Positions 5,232 to 64,000 of a stretch of 64,000 nucleotides of DNA are shown in pieces. The stretch covers positions 1 through 64,000 of the forward strand of contig CANRGA010000002.1 of the NCBI GenBank assembly GCA_947630055.1, in the 5' to 3' direction. The notes below the pieces were generated by a model. It worked only from the letters and a program-made list of their open reading frames with translations, was not told the DNA's origin and searched no databases. The position numbers and the translations under genes were made by a program. The first letter of the stretch is position 1. Each line of letters begins with the position of its first letter. The DNA comes from an uncultured Bacilli bacterium. GTDB taxonomy: Bacteria; Bacillota_I; Bacilli_A; RF39; UBA660.

Positions 5232-5381
5232 CTACTTACATTTATTAGGATTTAAATATCCATCCCAAACACCTACTAAAAATGTTACCAACCCAGTGGC
5301 TATACCAGTTATCAATGCCGCAATATTAAAACTAATCGCGCCTCCTTTAACATTCATCATTTCTTCATTATTAAGTTCCAT
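5232..5381 (-). CDS. Double-glycine-leader bacteriocin-like peptide, 49 aa
   Basis: Leader MELNNEEMMNVKGG ends in the double-glycine cut site. The predicted 35-residue mature peptide starts AISFNIAALITG, has a hydrophobic glycine-rich core and ends in NPNKCK with one cysteine. Its AGGAGG site overlaps the stop codon of the accessory gene, so the two are translationally linked. It pairs with the peptide at 5062-5223. No immunity gene is obvious; the short membrane protein at 5396-5809 could fill that role. Confidence 0.8.
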   Translation of the reverse strand: MELNNEEMMNVKGGAISFNIAALITGIATGLVTFLVGVWDGYLNPNKCK

Positions 5382-5395
5382 TAATATTACCTCCT

Positions 5396-5809
5396 CTACT
5401 TAAATAATTCAAAAATAAATTTAATTAATTTTTCTTTATGATAATAAATTTCTACTTCTCCTACTTCATTATCATAAACATCACCATCTATAGTAAGATA
5501 TATATTTTGATAAATCTTATTATCTATTATTTCATATTCACCCATATTTTTTATCTTATAAGTTACTTTTTGCTTATTAAATATTAACTCTTTATTAGTT
5601 TTTAAAATATCTATTTTATCTTGTGAAAACTTTACATTTAACAAATTATTTTGATAAATACCATAACAATTATATTTTTTGCTTACTACTTTAAAATAAC
5701 TAAACGTTAAGATAACTACACCATTTATAATAATGAGTACAATTATAGTGAAAAGATGTTTTTGTGATAAATTTCTTAAACGATAATAATTAACTTGAAA
5801 GTAATTCAT
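5396..5809 (-). CDS. Short membrane accessory protein of the bacteriocin exporter
   Basis: A 137-residue protein with one transmembrane helix (about residues 21-40) and a beta-rich extracytoplasmic part. The N-terminus (YFQVNYYRLRNLSQKH before the helix) resembles the start of HlyD-like bacteriocin accessory proteins, but those are about 450 aa, so this would be a minimal or degenerate form. It overlaps the exporter gene by 20 bases and directly precedes the peptides. It could help export or give immunity; the sequence does not decide. Confidence 0.55.
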   Translation of the reverse strand: MNYFQVNYYRLRNLSQKHLFTIIVLIIINGVVILTFSYFKVVSKKYNCYGIYQNNLLNVKFSQDKIDILKTNKELIFNKQKVTYKIKNMGEYEIIDNKIYQNIYLTIDGDVYDNEVGEVEIYYHKEKLIKFIFELFK

Positions 5810-55858: not shown

Positions 55859-55907
55859 AGGAACTGTCAAATAATTAAATAGTTAATTATTCAACAGCCC
55901 CTTTTTT
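55857..55907. terminator. Bidirectional terminator
   Basis: A long interrupted stem (AAAGG, CTGT and AATAATTAA pairing with TTAATTATT, ACAG and CCTTT), followed by T7 on the plus strand. It lies between convergent genes. Confidence 0.9.
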
Positions 55908-58900
55908 TAATCATCATCCTCTTTATTATCGTAAGATAATAAATCCTTAATATCTTTTTCAGTTAACTTACTAAACATATTAGCTTCCCCGCTTGAATCA
56001 AGTAGTTTATCGCTTAATAACTTTTTCTTACTTTGTAAATCTAATATCTTCTCTTCAATTGTACCTTTACTTACTAAATGAACAACTTGCACAACATTCT
56101 TTTGACCAATTCTATGGGCTCTATCTGTTGCTTGATTTTCAGCCTGAGGGTTCCACCATAAATCAAGATGAATAACAACATCAGCACTGGTTAAATTTAA
56201 TCCCGTACCTCCTGCTTTTAACATAATAAAGAACACATTCGTATTATCAGAATTAAACTTATCAACCATTTCCATTCGTTTTTTACTTGAAACACTACCA
56301 TCAATTGTATAAGAGGTAATACCAATTTTATCAAGTTCTGATTTCGCAAGTTCAAGTCCCGTTTTAAAACTTGTAAAGACAAGCATCTTATGCCCGTTTT
56401 CCACCATCTCAGAAACAACTTTAACAAACTCATCAAGTTTTCCACTTCCCCCTTTATAATCTTTATATAAAATCCGAGGGTCAATTACTATCTGTCTTAA
56501 CTTGGTTAATAATTGTAAAATTAAAAATCTTGCCTTTGTTATTCCCCCACTTGCCATAATCTCATTCATCTCTTGATTTACTTTCTCAAGTTCTGCTAAA
56601 TAAATCTTCTTTTGCTCTTTCGTTAAATCAACATAAATATTATTTTCAATTTTATCAGGCAAATCTTTAATTACATCTTTCTTTCTTCTTCTCATAATAA
56701 ATGGTGAAACTAACTTATTTAAATTATTAATCTTATCATCATCTTCATTAATATCTCTTATCTTATATTTCCTATCAAAGGTTTGTAAATTTGCTAAGAA
56801 CCCTGGCATGATAAAATCAAATATACTCCAAAGTTCTAATAAAGAATTTTCAATTGGGGTTCCTGTTAAAGCAATCTTCGTGTTTGCTTTAATACTTTTA
56901 ACTGTCTTAGTAACTTCCGTGTTAACATTCTTTATATTTTGAGCTTCATCTATAATCATTGTTTTAAAATTCATAGTCTCATATATTTCTTTATCTTCTC
57001 TTAATAATCCATAAGTTGTAATTAAGACATTATCTTGACTATCCTCTAAATCCATTCTTCTTTTAGCTCTAACTCCAGATATTACTTTATATTTAATATC
57101 TTTTCCAAACTTTTGAAACTCATTTTCCCAGTTATATGCAAGAGACGTTGGAGCAACTATTAAAAACTTATAATCCTTGTTTTCTTTTAATAACTCTTTA
57201 ATATAATAAATTGTTTGAATAGATTTACCAAGTCCCATCTCATCTGCAAGTATTCCTCCAAACCCTGTCTTATCTATATTATAAAGCCATTTAACTCCAT
57301 CTACTTGATATTCTCTTAATAACTCTTTATCACTTTTACTTAAATCAACATCACTATCTTTATATTTATTAAATTTATCGATTAAATCATCAAATAAATT
57401 ATTAGTTTCAATTATATGATATTTAGTATTCTTTAAACTATCTAAATAAATAGCTCTATATTTAGGAATTACTCCATTACCCTTCTTAATATCATTTTTA
57501 GATAAATCCATCTCTTCTGTTAATTTCTCTAATTCTTCTAAATCTTTATTATCTAAATCAATAATATCTCCTGATTTTAATCTATAATATTTCTTATTAT
57601 TTTTAATTGATTCTAAAACATTAACTATTTCATCTTCTTTAATATTTCCTAAATCAAATGAAAAACTTAAAATATTATCCATTCCAATTGAAAAAGTACT
57701 CTTAATATTATTATTTTTAATAACTTGAATTTTCTTTAACTTCTCACTTGTATAAGTTTCATACTTTTCAGTTAAACTAATTAAATCATTATCTAAGAAG
57801 TTACCTATATTATCTATATCTTCTAAATAAATATTAGTATCACTTACTATAAAATTACATTTAACTAAATCATCTAAGACACTAACCTCATATTCTACAT
57901 CTCTTAAAACATTACTATTTTTATCAAAATAATCTATTTCTATATCATCATATAAAAACTTTAAATTACAAATAACTAAGTCTTTATATAAATCAAAATA
58001 TAATTTAGCTTTAATACTACTACTAACTTTAATATCATCAATCTTACTATCAATTATAATTTTATCTTTAACAATAGGTAATAAACTATCTACAAAATCA
58101 TTTTTATCATTATTACCAAACATTAATTCATCTATTCTATCTTCAATTAATTCATTTATTAAACTTGCTTTATTCTTATCTAAATGATATAAATTATCTT
58201 CTATTTGAATATATTCATAATCACTAGTAACAATTCTAATATCATCTCTTATATTTAATTTTAATTTATAATTTCCATTTTCTAAATTTAATCTTGTTTC
58301 AAAAGGAAATTCATTATTAATATTTCTAATAGTATTATAATTTAAACTAAACTTTCTATCTTTTAATAAAAATAATAATCTTTTAATATTATAACTACCA
58401 ATTAAATAATCTGAACTAAAATAATAATTATTACCATCAAGATTCATAATTAAAAAATCAATTATTTCTCGATTTTCATCACCTATATAACAAGTATCAG
58501 GATTATATTCAAAATTTTTTCCAAAACTATATGTAGTTTTATCTTTAATTGCTCTTAAAAAATTCTTTAGTTTACTTCCCTTAGCCGTATATAGTTTATT
58601 AGTTCCAACTCTTAAACATACATCCATAGTATTTCTATTAATATCTCTATTACTATTATCACAATTTAATTCATATTCTATTTTAACTTCTTCTTTAACA
58701 CTTCTTTTACTAGTTTTATTCCCAAGTATCTTTTTAAATAATTCTTTAGTATAATTTGCTCTTTCTTTATCACTTAATTTAACTCTAAATATTTGTTCGT
58801 AATAAAAATAAATAGAAGCTGCTAAATGTTTACAACTTTTAGTTTCTCTAAATTGAGGACAATCACAATTAAGATTTAATATCTCATTAGTATCTTTATT

Positions 58901-59110
58901 AATATATAATTCACAATCATATATTCTACTAGTTCTTTCTGATTCAACAGGAACATCTAATCTAATAAGATTAGGATTTTCTCTATTATATCTAATAGTC
59001 CCTTTTCCAATATATCCCGGATAATATCTTCTTCCTTTTTGATAATCATCATATTTTAAATATTTCATTATTAATTTTTGTTTTTCATTTTCTGATACTT
59101 TTACTTCCAT
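55907..59110 (-). CDS. SWIM-domain SNF2-family helicase
   Basis: A SWIM zinc finger (CDCPQFRETKSCKHLAAS) lies near residue 80. It is followed by a long Asn-rich beta region and a SNF2 ATPase with ADEMGLGKSIQT, a DEAQ-type Walker B, TGTPIENS and the C-terminal motif QATDRAHRIGQ. At about 1067 aa it matches Firmicute SWIM-SNF2 proteins, thought to remodel DNA-protein complexes. ATG at 59110 has an AGGAAGTG site. Confidence 0.93.
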   Translation of the reverse strand: MEVKVSENEKQKLIMKYLKYDDYQKGRRYYPGYIGKGTIRYNRENPNLIRLDVPVESERTSRIYDCELYINKDTNEILNLNCDCPQFRETKSCKHLAASIYFYYEQIFRVKLSDKERANYTKELFKKILGNKTSKRSVKEEVKIEYELNCDNSNRDINRNTMDVCLRVGTNKLYTAKGSKLKNFLRAIKDKTTYSFGKNFEYNPDTCYIGDENREIIDFLIMNLDGNNYYFSSDYLIGSYNIKRLLFLLKDRKFSLNYNTIRNINNEFPFETRLNLENGNYKLKLNIRDDIRIVTSDYEYIQIEDNLYHLDKNKASLINELIEDRIDELMFGNNDKNDFVDSLLPIVKDKIIIDSKIDDIKVSSSIKAKLYFDLYKDLVICNLKFLYDDIEIDYFDKNSNVLRDVEYEVSVLDDLVKCNFIVSDTNIYLEDIDNIGNFLDNDLISLTEKYETYTSEKLKKIQVIKNNNIKSTFSIGMDNILSFSFDLGNIKEDEIVNVLESIKNNKKYYRLKSGDIIDLDNKDLEELEKLTEEMDLSKNDIKKGNGVIPKYRAIYLDSLKNTKYHIIETNNLFDDLIDKFNKYKDSDVDLSKSDKELLREYQVDGVKWLYNIDKTGFGGILADEMGLGKSIQTIYYIKELLKENKDYKFLIVAPTSLAYNWENEFQKFGKDIKYKVISGVRAKRRMDLEDSQDNVLITTYGLLREDKEIYETMNFKTMIIDEAQNIKNVNTEVTKTVKSIKANTKIALTGTPIENSLLELWSIFDFIMPGFLANLQTFDRKYKIRDINEDDDKINNLNKLVSPFIMRRRKKDVIKDLPDKIENNIYVDLTKEQKKIYLAELEKVNQEMNEIMASGGITKARFLILQLLTKLRQIVIDPRILYKDYKGGSGKLDEFVKVVSEMVENGHKMLVFTSFKTGLELAKSELDKIGITSYTIDGSVSSKKRMEMVDKFNSDNTNVFFIMLKAGGTGLNLTSADVVIHLDLWWNPQAENQATDRAHRIGQKNVVQVVHLVSKGTIEEKILDLQSKKKLLSDKLLDSSGEANMFSKLTEKDIKDLLSYDNKEDDD

Positions 59111-59139
59111 ACAAACACTTCCTAACACAAACATATATT

Positions 59140-59209: not shown

Positions 59210-59370
59210 CAAATCAAATATATTTCAATATTTATAAACATATATAGTTCTAAACTTAAGTACGTATACCTAAGTTATCTATATTTCCCTTCTGATTAAA
59301 TCAAGGATAGGATTGTCCTTTACTCGTACAAATTAAAACCTTAATCTTAATATTCAAGATATAAAGGGCT

Positions 59371-59476
59371 GGCGCGCGCCGTTGTTGCTGTTATTGACGT
59401 TGTTGTTCGTAATAGTCCCCGTCGTATTCCAATTAGCAGCATTCTCAGAATTGTTAGAGGAGGGCGACAAAAGCCA
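59371..59476 (-). repeat. Noncoding copy of the surface-protein 3' end (candidate template repeat)
   Basis: This 106-bp segment aligns without gaps to 59782-59887. In the coding sense it is rich in AAC/AAT codons and would read SNNSENAANWNTTG, then NNNVNNSNNGAR, but it lacks a start and is followed by a stop. There are 28 mismatches, 17 of them at its 31 adenines. The ends are invariant: GGCGCGCGCC on one side and 23 bases at the other. Confidence 0.85.
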
Positions 59477-59540
59477 AGGCGACTCAATTTAAATTATCCT
59501 ACCCATTTTTTTAGAAATAGTTGCTTTGCTACTTTTAAGT

Positions 59541-59695
59541 ATCCATGTTAATTTGCTTTAACATGGATTTTTCAAAATAATCGTCGCTCGCCTTAACGGC
59601 GAGATTAATCAATTGCAGTATCTTACTTTTTTTCTTTTTGTAACTTTTATGGTTCAATACCCTGTCTCCTGCGGACTTTGCCTCCGCAAGGAGAC
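59541..59695. repeat. Three stem-loops between the two copies
   Basis: 59541-59568 has perfect 11-bp arms. 59587-59603 pairs CTCGCC with GGCGAG. 59664-59695 is a GC-rich stem of 12 pairs with one bulge that touches the surface-protein stop codon. GC-rich stems are rare elsewhere in this window. Confidence 0.8.
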
Positions 59696-61288
59696 TTAAT
59701 TGCCCAGTTTCACAACAAATGGACTTAGCACATTCCCTTCACCAGCCTCAATTCTTGCTTGGGATTTCAGATTAAGGACTGGGCGCGCGCCGTTGCTGCT
59801 GCCATTGACGCCATTGCCGCTCACAAGGCCGTCCGAATCCCAGTGAGCAGCACGCTGAGAGTGGTCAGAGGAGGGCGACAAAAGCCATTCGTAATCATTA
59901 TGATTTGCTGTTTTTTGTAGCCAACTTGCCTTTACATTACTATTACTACTGTTTAAATTCAAGGTCCAACTACAACTATTTGATGCATATCTTACATCAC
60001 TTGGATACATTAAGGCTATATTTCCAATTTCATTTCCATTCCATGTTGCTTGATTTCCTTCCCTTATTTCTCCTCCACTACAACTTCCACTACATGTTGT
60101 ATCTCCTCTTTCGTATGTATAATTTGTTATTGTATCTTTTTGATAATTAAAATTTCCTAAATAATATGTTGTATTTTCTATCATACTTTTAGCATTTTGA
60201 CTTAAGTAACTCATATAACCATCGCTTGGCTCTTTTGTATCTTTATCACTTCCGGCATTTAACCAATATTGGAGTCCTGCTGTTGCCCAATCATTATTGT
60301 AGCCTGTTTTATTGTTCCAATATACATAATCACCACTACTATTTGTAGATTGAATTTTATAAGTTGTTCCATTTGCTTCAAAGGTTACAGGATACATATC
60401 TCTTGATAAAACATTATTTCTTACTATCTTTATATGTTCTTGTCCTTCTTCATCTTTAAATATTCCTAGTATTCTCCATATTTCACAAGTACTAGCACTA
60501 GGTTCTTTATTGTCTTCACAATTGAAATAAATATAATTATCTACATCTGGTCCAACATAACGGTATTCTCTTATTTCTTCTCCATCGTTTCCTTGATATA
60601 GAGTTCCTTCTGTATTTATGGCTACTAAGCCTCCTTTTGTTTTAAAACTAGTACATGTATTTGTTACATTAGTTACTACTTTTTCTTTTAAAGTATCAGT
60701 AGCACTTGGTTTTTCTACATCATTATAAGCATATAAATTAACTTTAAAACTAAAAGTTTGATTAGTTGTATTTTGAGTATAACTCTCGTCTATCCAAACA
60801 TAAATACGATATTTATCTTCAAATGTATTAGATTTAGATTGACTATAAATTACTTTACCATTAGAAGAATTAGGATAAGTTGTTTTAGATAAAGAATTAT
60901 ATACTGTTGGAGCTTTAATTTCTTCATTATTATCATCCGTTAAATAAACTTTAATAAAACTAGAATCTAAAGTATTTCTTGAATCTTCTTCTAAATAGAT
61001 TTCATAAGTTACTAACTCTTTAGGTGTTGAATTATTACCCTTTACTGTAAAATCAATATAACCTAATTTATTTAAATTAGTTTTAGCAAAGTTATCACTT
61101 ATTGGATAAGCATAAGTTAAATTAATAGTATTATCACCACTAACAAACTCAGCACTTATATTATTACTTGTTAAAGTAAATGCTTTAGCTGATTTAGAAT
61201 AGAGAAAGAAAGCATAAGTTGAACCTATAAGGGTTATTAAAAGAGCTATTATGCTTACTATTAAAACATTTCTTTTTTTATTATTCAT
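59696..61288 (-). CDS. Surface protein with TasA-like N-terminus and variable C-terminal domain
   Basis: A signal/anchor helix (about 8-27, ending STYAFFLYSKS) starts a TasA-like beta domain (to about 190). Residues 205-530 form a second domain with cysteine pairs, tryptophan-rich blocks and the ending WLLSPSS, then NGARPVLNLKS, the pattern of DUF6273/C-type-lectin-fold domains. Such folds are common targets of diversity-generating retroelements. The 106 bp encoding the last loops are duplicated downstream. ATG at 61288 has an AAGGGTGA site. It follows the 182-aa protein gene closely. Confidence 0.75.
   Translation of the reverse strand: MNNKKRNVLIVSIIALLITLIGSTYAFFLYSKSAKAFTLTSNNISAEFVSGDNTINLTYAYPISDNFAKTNLNKLGYIDFTVKGNNSTPKELVTYEIYLEEDSRNTLDSSFIKVYLTDDNNEEIKAPTVYNSLSKTTYPNSSNGKVIYSQSKSNTFEDKYRIYVWIDESYTQNTTNQTFSFKVNLYAYNDVEKPSATDTLKEKVVTNVTNTCTSFKTKGGLVAINTEGTLYQGNDGEEIREYRYVGPDVDNYIYFNCEDNKEPSASTCEIWRILGIFKDEEGQEHIKIVRNNVLSRDMYPVTFEANGTTYKIQSTNSSGDYVYWNNKTGYNNDWATAGLQYWLNAGSDKDTKEPSDGYMSYLSQNAKSMIENTTYYLGNFNYQKDTITNYTYERGDTTCSGSCSGGEIREGNQATWNGNEIGNIALMYPSDVRYASNSCSWTLNLNSSNSNVKASWLQKTANHNDYEWLLSPSSDHSQRAAHWDSDGLVSGNGVNGSSNGARPVLNLKSQARIEAGEGNVLSPFVVKLGN
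59782..59887 (-). repeat. Variable-repeat-like segment in the surface gene
   Basis: The in-gene copy encodes LLSPSSDHSQRAAHWDSD, then GLVSGNGVNGSSNGAR. Only 1 of its 15 coding-sense adenines lies at a mismatch to the distal copy, an asymmetry expected if changes went from A in the template to other bases here. Confidence 0.8.
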
Positions 61289-61293
61289 GATTA

Positions 61294-61842
61294 TCACCCT
61301 TGATTACTATTTACTACTACTCTTGCTTTATAAGTTTTATTCATATAACTACTTGGAGTATCTTCTGCTAACCAAGCCTTAACTTTATATAAAACTGTAT
61401 CCGATACTTTTAAAGTTTCAAGTTTATCAATATAATTATCTTGTTTTAATAATTTAGTTTTACTATAAAGACCATTATTTTTACTTACTTGATAATTTAT
61501 ATAACTTGGAAAATCTAAATCATCATCACTTATAGTATCTATATAAATATCATAGTTAGCATCAACATTACCTGTATTCTTAATTCTAAATACTAATTCT
61601 TTATCTGTATTATCTTTACCAGTTGGATAAGCATTTTCAATTACTAATGTATTTGTGTCCCTTTCAACAAAAGTAACTTCTAATGTACCTACATTAATAA
61701 CATAACTATTCTTACTATATTTATTAGTTATTAAAATAGCATAACTAGCACTTAATAAAGTAATAAGAACTAACATAATCGTAAATAAAGGTAAAAATTT
61801 TAAAAATGGTTTATTAAATTCAAATTTAATTTTTTTCTTCAT
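61294..61842 (-). CDS. TasA/camelysin-like anchored protein
   Basis: A membrane helix (about 15-33, LLSASYAILITNKYS) is followed by a beta domain with VINVGTLEVTFVERD and FRIKNTGNVDANYDIYID, typical of TasA-like proteins. It has 182 aa from ATG 61842 with AGGAGG. The stop overlaps the upstream region of the next surface gene, so the two are co-translated. A matrix or fibre role is inferred. Confidence 0.7.
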   Translation of the reverse strand: MKKKIKFEFNKPFLKFLPLFTIMLVLITLLSASYAILITNKYSKNSYVINVGTLEVTFVERDTNTLVIENAYPTGKDNTDKELVFRIKNTGNVDANYDIYIDTISDDDLDFPSYINYQVSKNNGLYSKTKLLKQDNYIDKLETLKVSDTVLYKVKAWLAEDTPSSYMNKTYKARVVVNSNQG

Positions 61843-61887
61843 ATGTCCTCCTATAATAATTCTAACAAAATATTTATAAATTTGCAA

Positions 61888-64000
61888 CTATTTTACAGTA
61901 AGTTCTACTCTTAATCTTTTATCATCAATTCTTTTAAATTCATATTTATTAGTATTTATATCATTAAAGTTAGTATATGATACATCAATTAATTCTCCAT
62001 AATAAGATTTATTATTAGAAGTTGTTTTTAAAATAATTGCATAAGTTCCTTTAGGAAGATTTAAATTAATATCTTTTTTAAACCATGCTCTGGTTTTATC
62101 TTTATTATCAGATACTGCTAATTTTACTTGATATGGTCCATTATCAATATAAGATAAATCATAAGAATATCTTTGATAATTTTTAGTATTTTCAAATATT
62201 ATTTCTCTTTTAATAGTATCATTTTTAGAATAACTTTCTAATATACTATGACTAGTTCCCATTATTTCTAAAGTATCATTTTCAACCGATAACTCTGTAA
62301 AGAAATTATACATTGGATCTAGAGTATTTGGAACATCATAACTAATTAGGCCACTTGCTCTAACTGCTAATATAATTGGAGAGCCAGAGTAACTATAGTC
62401 AATATCAAAGGCATAACCATGAGTATTTGTTTTTACTCTTCTTGGCATTTCTTGATAAGCAATATTAGTAAAGTATGTTTTAGCATAGTTTCCCGTATCT
62501 TTATTGTAGGCTACAATTTCTATTTTGTAATTACCATCAGGTAAACTTGCTAAATTAATATTACCTTTAAACCAACCACCTTGATAGTTATAAGTTTTAT
62601 CATCACCTAAACTACTTACATCATATGGGTAGTTTTCATATTTATCCATTTTAAATGTATAAGATTTATTAGTATTTTCATCTGTAAAAATTAATTCATG
62701 AGTTATATTAATATTATTTTCTTGTTTAACTCCTAAGAAACCACTGAAAGTGAAGGTATCATTATTAGTTTGTTTGATACTATCATAGATAAATAAACTT
62801 TTGGCTTCTTTGTATTCTTTAACTGTAACTTTAATTGTTTTAGTTGTTTTTAAGCCTTTGGAGTCTACTACTTCATAAGTTACTTCATAAGTTCCTGGTT
62901 TAGTTACATTAACGGTGTTTTTAGTAACTTTAATATTTTTAGTTAAATCACCATCTTCACTATCAAAAGCTGTAACTTTATCTAAAGGATTAAAAGTATC
63001 ATTTAAGTAAATTGCTTTATCAGAAGCCGTTATACTTGGGGCTTTATTTAATTTATCGGTTGTATATGATAAAGTGCCTACTGATGATGAGATATTAGTA
63101 TTAATCCAAGCTAGGGTGTTATCAACTCCATAGTAAATTTGTAACCAAGTATCATTGTTATAAGTTGTTTTATCAGTAATAACTGTATATGTATCTGTAT
63201 AAATTGCACCTAGTACATCCTTGCCTGGAGTTTTATAAACATTTAAATAACTACCTTCTTTTATTAAACTAACTTTTAAAATATCTTTATCTGAAAATGT
63301 TAAGTTAGAAGCACTTATCCATCTTCTTTGATTTTTACCGTAATCGGTTGTAACTAAGTAAGATACTACTTTCTCGTTTTCTTTGGCTTCCATGAAAACA
63401 GTTATTAAATTACCTTTTTTAATTTTTTTATCACTTGCAATTGTTAAACTAGGATTATTATAAGTACTAGTATCATTTGTAATTAATCCAACTTTTGGTG
63501 TATAAGTTTTATTAGTTGTATACTCTTCAAATTTATAATTATTATAGTTATTAATATCTTTTGGATTATTTAATTTATTATTAGTAGAATTATTAATTTT
63601 TTTAACAAATGAAGAATGGATATAAACATAATTATTATCCCAATTATAATAATTAGTTTTAGAACAACTTTGAATAGAAGTTCTGGTGCTATTTAAATTA
63701 GCATCTGACATTACTTTATACCAAATGTCACTATCGCCTACTTTTTCTCCTTTTACTTCTTCAAGAATAACTAAAGGAACGTTTTTTGTTTTATACATAA
63801 AAGGACTAGGACTAGTTGTATTAGGGTTGCTTCTTGCATATACATCATAATAAAGAAGTAAGCCTAATTGATAATAGTTATAATCTAAATAACCATTCTT
63901 TTTATCAAATTGATAGTAATAGTTAGCAGCTTTCTCTCCCCAATAAGCATCACTTGCATAGGCAATGTTCATGCCACTTGTTTTATTACCTAAGTTAGAA
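61888..64000 (-). CDS. Secreted glucosaminidase-type cell-wall protein (5' end outside window)
   Basis: Partial: the reading frame is open to the window edge. The first visible residues (SNLGNKTSGMNIAYASDAYW, then GEKAANYYYQFD) are the C-terminal part of a glucosaminidase domain. SH3-like repeats, an Ig-like DUF5011 domain (VTAFDSEDGDLTKNIKV) and two beta-sandwich repeats of similar design follow. It would cut or bind peptidoglycan outside the cell. First gene of the surface cluster. Confidence 0.8.
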   Translation of the reverse strand, partial: SNLGNKTSGMNIAYASDAYWGEKAANYYYQFDKKNGYLDYNYYQLGLLLYYDVYARSNPNTTSPSPFMYKTKNVPLVILEEVKGEKVGDSDIWYKVMSDANLNSTRTSIQSCSKTNYYNWDNNYVYIHSSFVKKINNSTNNKLNNPKDINNYNNYKFEEYTTNKTYTPKVGLITNDTSTYNNPSLTIASDKKIKKGNLITVFMEAKENEKVVSYLVTTDYGKNQRRWISASNLTFSDKDILKVSLIKEGSYLNVYKTPGKDVLGAIYTDTYTVITDKTTYNNDTWLQIYYGVDNTLAWINTNISSSVGTLSYTTDKLNKAPSITASDKAIYLNDTFNPLDKVTAFDSEDGDLTKNIKVTKNTVNVTKPGTYEVTYEVVDSKGLKTTKTIKVTVKEYKEAKSLFIYDSIKQTNNDTFTFSGFLGVKQENNINITHELIFTDENTNKSYTFKMDKYENYPYDVSSLGDDKTYNYQGGWFKGNINLASLPDGNYKIEIVAYNKDTGNYAKTYFTNIAYQEMPRRVKTNTHGYAFDIDYSYSGSPIILAVRASGLISYDVPNTLDPMYNFFTELSVENDTLEIMGTSHSILESYSKNDTIKREIIFENTKNYQRYSYDLSYIDNGPYQVKLAVSDNKDKTRAWFKKDINLNLPKGTYAIILKTTSNNKSYYGELIDVSYTNFNDINTNKYEFKRIDDKRLRVELTVK

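Follow-up and report, generated by a model that had tools for sequence, protein, structure and literature searches.

The diversity-generating retroelement (DGR) of Bordetella phage BPP-1 holds all of its parts (Mtd, Avd, the template repeat TR, the spacer sp and the reverse transcriptase bRT) at one locus, with the variable repeat (VR) at the 3′ end of the target, an initiation-of-mutagenic-homing (IMH) end shared by the two repeats, a stem-loop behind VR, a structured spacer after TR, and changes focused on adenines (PMC3240598, PMC12875486). In Thiohalocapsa PB-PSB1, incomplete DGR loci and remote targets occur in a genome with intact DGRs, and diversification in trans by the incomplete loci was inferred from perfect matches at non-adenine sites (PMC10907252). 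Treponema denticola DGRs have targets remote from the core, and leftover targets are found in isolates without the core (PMC4891356). VR lies in a DUF6273-type target domain in the DGRs of gut phage nd12 and of Faecalibacterium prophages (PMC10743442, PMC11792537), and a large survey makes mention of DGRs with more than one TR (PMC6642488). A limited look at the open-access literature yielded no description of many scattered template-plus-spacer elements that lack a reverse transcriptase (RT).

The locus analysed here lies in a 64,000-nucleotide stretch of DNA, called the window, from contig C2 of an uncultured Bacilli bacterium (assembly GCA_947630055.1; lineage RF39, UBA660). It shares with BPP-1 the position of VR, an IMH-like shared end, the stem-loop behind VR, the structured spacer and the adenine focus, but here the RT and Avd genes are on other contigs, and the hairpin stands about 90 bases from the VR end. 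As in Thiohalocapsa, an incomplete DGR locus and a target remote from the RT occur in a genome that also has intact DGRs; there, trans VRs match TR perfectly, whereas VR and the adjacent TR of the window differ at 11 non-adenine sites, and relatives carry up to 13 TR-sp elements per one RT. In T. denticola it is the target that is remote from the core, whereas here TR and sp are away from the RT as well. The nd12 and Faecalibacterium DGRs are phage-borne, whereas the target gene of the window had no relative in a scan of viral contigs, on which ground a phage origin of this gene was set aside. We read the locus as an RT-less VR/TR/sp cassette of a DGR that acts across loci, running on the minus strand throughout, and place the probability of this reading at about 0.85.

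The repeat pair

The two repeats (Table 1) are 106 bp long, align without gaps and differ at 28 sites, and the sequence-only reading had both their coordinates and their counts exactly right: in the coding sense, mismatches fall on 17 of the 31 adenines of TR and on 11 of its 75 other bases, while in VR, the gene copy, a single one of 15 adenines is mismatched. The adenine bias is strong by Fisher's test (P 5e-5) and by permutation (P 4e-5, or 8e-5 with shuffling confined to codon positions), and the permutations, including the shuffle within codon positions, rule out chance or composition as its source. TR adenines occupy codon position 1 (18) or position 2 (13) and never position 3; all 17 adenine mismatches are at positions 1 or 2, and 7 of the 11 non-adenine mismatches are at position 3. 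A DGR template repeat has just this pattern of adenines and codon positions, and the pattern lies beyond chance.

Table 1. Features of the cassette and its surroundings (window coordinates)
Feature	Position	Strand	Remarks
SNF2-like helicase (motifs by eye), unrelated neighbour	55907..59134	minus	ORF; placed where accessory, Avd and RT genes sit in a complete DGR
sp RNA element downstream of TR	59237..59373	minus	as between TR and accessory/RT genes in relatives
Template repeat (TR)	59371..59476	minus	31 adenines, confined to the first two codon positions; reads as runs of Asn codons
Stem-loop ATCCATGTTAA/TTAACATGGAT	59541..59568	not assigned	between VR and TR; inverted repeat
Stem-loop CTCGCC/GGCGAG	59587..59603	not assigned	between VR and TR; read from sequence
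Stem-loop GTCTCCTTGCGGAGGCAAAGTCCGCAGGAGAC, candidate homing hairpin	59664..59695	minus	directly behind target stop codon
Target gene, 533 aa surface-type protein	59696..61297	minus	ORF; N-terminal hydrophobic segment
GGCGCGCGCC, IMH-like 3′ end of VR	59782..59791	minus	identical sequence ends TR
Variable repeat (VR)	59782..59887	minus	codons for WLLSPSSDHSQRAAHWDSDGLVSGNGVNGSSNGAR; covers predicted beta-hairpin

The GC-rich end that had been called invariant is so, closing both copies at their 3′ end in the coding sense, and its position is that of the GGTTCGCC-type sequence that closes the TRs and VRs of relatives. The three stem-loops reported between the copies are likewise present. Hairpins similar to the one behind the target stop codon stand behind the VR genes of two DGRs in the same genome (contigs C43 and C28) and of a relative (G019:C42). 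Searches of the whole own genome, both blastn-type and with an adenine-tolerant pattern, returned no further copy of the repeat and no other VR for the window TR; a 24-base match on contig C15 was discarded as being at chance level (E 1.3).

The target protein and its neighbours

The target protein has relatives within the family and in the metagenome-assembled genome of an uncultured Bacilli bacterium. Pfam, NCBIfam and PDB sequence searches with the target itself gave nothing useful; its C-terminal domain is related to DUF6273-type proteins, and some of the aligned relatives match PF19789 (DUF6273). An AlphaFold2 model of residues 195–533, built on an alignment of 23 relatives, reached a pLDDT of 85.5 and places VR across a beta-hairpin with strands 288–292 and 298–302 (model numbering). 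Foldseek searches with this model matched DUF6273 phage proteins, and 9qa6 was the sole significant match in the PDB. Published work on the DUF6273-type DGR targets of gut phages describes them as resembling C-type lectins and as having a beta-hairpin that is hypermutated (PMC10743442); in Faecalibacterium prophages the VRs lie at the end of DUF6273 (PMC11792537). The C-type lectin fold suggested beforehand is thus plausible by way of the DUF6273-like relatives (PMC10743442), while no lectin structure was matched directly; we regard a lectin fold of the domain as likely.

The helicase-like gene begins about 100 bases beyond the spacer element, on the same strand. Directly upstream of the target, also on the same strand, two more genes for secreted or surface-type proteins occupy positions 61294–63999, which suggests that these genes and the target form a surface-protein cluster.

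Reverse transcriptases in the same genome

The assembly (1.19 Mb in 60 contigs) is a fragmented metagenome bin with a completeness of about 90%, which leaves room for a further RT or TR outside it. No RT is present on window contig C2. A search of the genome for DGR-type RTs, which had been proposed as a check, found three, on contigs C43, C28 and C3, each adjoining an Avd-like and a MutS_I-like gene (that of C28 identified by its likeness to the C43 counterpart); the expectation that RT and Avd-like genes would be encoded elsewhere was therefore borne out on other contigs of the same assembly, and the lack of any RT, named beforehand as a ground for refutation, is not what is seen. All three Avd proteins match the NCBIfam Avd model below its cut-off, and of the two scanned against the Pfam bAvd model, C3 scored above the cut-off and C43 below. 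The solved structure that best matches the C43 RT is the reverse transcriptase 8ub7, with group II and retron enzymes ranking lower, and the best phage match to this RT is in gut phage nd12 (37% identity).

The C43 and C28 RTs are 69% identical to each other and belong to the clade that we modelled, hereafter the clade RT. The local TR-VR pair of C43 has no non-adenine mismatch. C28 at first sight lacks a TR, a possibility rejected since the TR is carried by C30, a contig with an overlap of exactly 77 bases to C28; this TR differs from the C28 VR at 1 non-adenine site over 65 bases. Both of these DGRs have a second small gene behind the RT (L007 5650–5940, L008 925–1212); just one of these two small genes gave a MutS_I match, weak and below the cut-off. 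The C3 system is built otherwise: its target is FGE-like, and between this target and the genes for accessory protein, Avd and RT stand four TR-sp-like units in tandem. These units (G000:C3:14499–16390, equal to L009 6499–8390) measure about 0.5 kb each; the first fits its VR without a non-adenine mismatch and the other three nearly so. Four TR-sp units are likewise present in each of the relatives L043 and L047.

The spacer RNA element

Loci of the C43/C28-clade RT were taken from 15 relatives in the genus to define the spacer. At these loci the stretch between TR and the accessory gene is conserved, with 36 base pairs, 24 of which show compensated changes. A covariance model (R1) was built from 23 copies, 22 from relatives and one from own contig C43, with the window excluded. 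Run against the 64-kb window, R1 gave one match (67.1 bits, E 5.8e-11; next 12.9 bits), which starts at the very end of the TR copy and is independent evidence from the adenine bias. The window sp retains 32 of the 36 pairs, 13 of them through two-sided change, and hence this RNA was long under selection. Across 34 sp elements, pairing holds in 97.9% of cells versus 82.6% for shuffled and ~45% for slid structures, figures that favour structure because the alignment was itself fitted to it. The window sp is only 50–64% identical to other elements, and 54% to the sp of C43, so that its recognition by the C43 or C28 RT remains inferential. Three sp elements of this kind were found in the own genome, one of which fits the window VR.

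The features of a DGR are accordingly present in the window as changes concentrated at TR adenines, a VR at the 3′ end of a protein gene with adenines at amino-acid-changing positions, an IMH-like shared 3′ end with a stem-loop behind VR, and a structured spacer RNA behind TR; RT and Avd are present in the genome (C43, C28, C3), and an RT at the locus is absent. That all local parts stand in order except Avd and RT supports a DGR-like way of working and an RT-less DGR satellite, not a complete DGR. The sp match and the RT and Avd-like genes of the assembly lend support to the original proposal that the two repeats are a template/variable pair, either served by an RT and Avd encoded elsewhere or left as a relic.

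Template elements across the genus

RT-less TR-sp elements are common in the genus. In 38 genomes the sp model detected 80 elements, distributed over 18 genomes, and the clade RT was found at 17 loci in 16 genomes. Contig extent was checked for 47 elements away from a clade RT, and behind 41 of them the assembled sequence runs on for at least 3 kb without a clade RT; the fetched element loci were also checked for RT by tblastn. Elements outnumber the clade RT 13 to 1 in G008, 12 to 1 in G031 and 6 to 1 in G023. The assemblies are fragmented metagenome bins in which the contigs of one bin may mix organisms, though the clade RT occurs in 16 of the 38 genomes. A TATAAT-like box and a GGTAATCTTGA-like leader were seen by eye ahead of TR in many elements.

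RT-less loci with a VR beside TR, as in the window, occur at G019:C42, G016:C90, G016:C30 and G031:C19; at G031:C19 the downstream sequence is short. Four VRs of G019, on four contigs, agree with a single TR sequence at every non-adenine site in the stretches compared, and one of the two copies of this TR has no adjacent RT. Other VRs in relatives, compared with the best TR of the same genome, mostly show 0–5 non-adenine mismatches of about 48 sites, and some show 7–13; the window pair, with 11 of 75, ranks high in this range.

Six genomes (G008, G031, G037, G003, G023 and G027) have 6–13 dispersed TR-sp elements each with one or no clade RT, many of these elements without a well-matching VR nearby, and their templates differ from one another at non-adenine bases too. 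In G037 (94% complete), 11 TR-sp elements were counted and no clade RT was found. Certain templates, G008:C4:53245 among them, look partly mutated at sites that are adenine in their sister templates, as though templates, too, were rewritten at times. Mosaic VRs composed from two templates were considered for the relatives; single cases were suggestive, and a position-shuffled null did not support them (P 0.41, 0.06, 0.63). At L051 (G017:C21), the clade RT gene is split by an insert of about 3.4 kb (1228–1890 and 5291–5782).

Probable drift of the template and alternative explanations

The relative L062, 55–61% identical to the target in the C-terminal part, provides an outgroup VR for the 11 non-adenine differences: it has the base of the window VR at 7 of them, that of TR at 1, and a base found in neither copy at the other 3, so it is mostly TR that has changed. 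The caution that the adjacent copy may not be the exact current template proved well placed. Seven of the 11 mismatches fall within one 14-base stretch (repeat positions 56–69) and could reflect one or two small events. The cassette was likely written in the past, its TR having drifted since it last wrote VR, and rewriting of this pair has probably stopped or become rare; an idle or decaying state at present appears more likely than a highly active one. The sequence of a single genome agrees equally with idleness, rare use and lost use.

A complete DGR that lost its accessory, Avd and RT genes, in which retrohoming has ceased and TR and VR decay each on its own, is a serious possibility to which we give somewhat less than an even chance: such a relic would explain the 11 non-adenine mismatches, 7 of them apparently changes in TR, the lack of another VR or TR for the pair in the genome, and the unrelated gene in the place of the RT. 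It fits less well with a spacer in which 32 of 36 pairs persist, 13 of them changed on both sides, a mark of long selection on the RNA, with the presence of RTs in the genome, and with a genus in which most TR-sp elements are not near an RT. Diversification in trans today by the C43 or C28 RT accords with the pattern of trans service in G019, G016 and others, and the exact or nearly exact pairs of C43 and C28 make these RTs look recently active; yet we hold it doubtful, for TR and VR of the window are out of register at non-adenine bases, and recent rewriting would erase such differences.

In a further account, VR is written by another TR, missing from the assembly, and the adjacent TR is a diverged sister template. 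Multi-TR loci are common, and G008:C11 and G008:C18 each have beside a TR a VR that has a better fit to some other template or a good fit to none, but the own genome has only the three sp elements of this family that were found, one of them fitting the window VR, and we consider this account improbable. An ordinary partial duplication of the gene, its mismatch bias a product of chance, would leave two copies 300 bp apart behind the gene, as observed; it is scarcely credible against a bias of P about 4e-5 and adenines confined to codon positions 1 and 2, and it is refuted by the sp element, an RNA element of E 6e-11 exactly at the repeat end.

Proposed mechanism and significance

Under the preferred reading of an RT-less cassette served from other loci, the TR-sp RNA would be bound through sp by an RT-Avd complex encoded elsewhere, reverse transcription of TR would introduce errors at its adenines, and VR would be replaced by the cDNA, anchored at GGCGCGCGCC. 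The C43 and C28 systems are the candidate enzymes, as their clade carries this sp type; recognition of the window sp by them is presumed. For this genus of gut bacteria as a whole, we lean towards a multi-template, multi-target network acting in trans, in which a single DGR RT is fed by many dispersed TR-sp elements, beside a target or alone, and writes many chromosomal targets, the window cassette being one such satellite.

DGR surveys begin at the RT and then seek adjacent repeats, whereas an sp covariance model reveals templates with no RT in reach; in this one genus it brought out 80 template elements, against 17 loci of the clade RT. Should these templates act in trans, a genome of about 1.2 Mb would keep many targets under targeted hypermutation with one enzyme.
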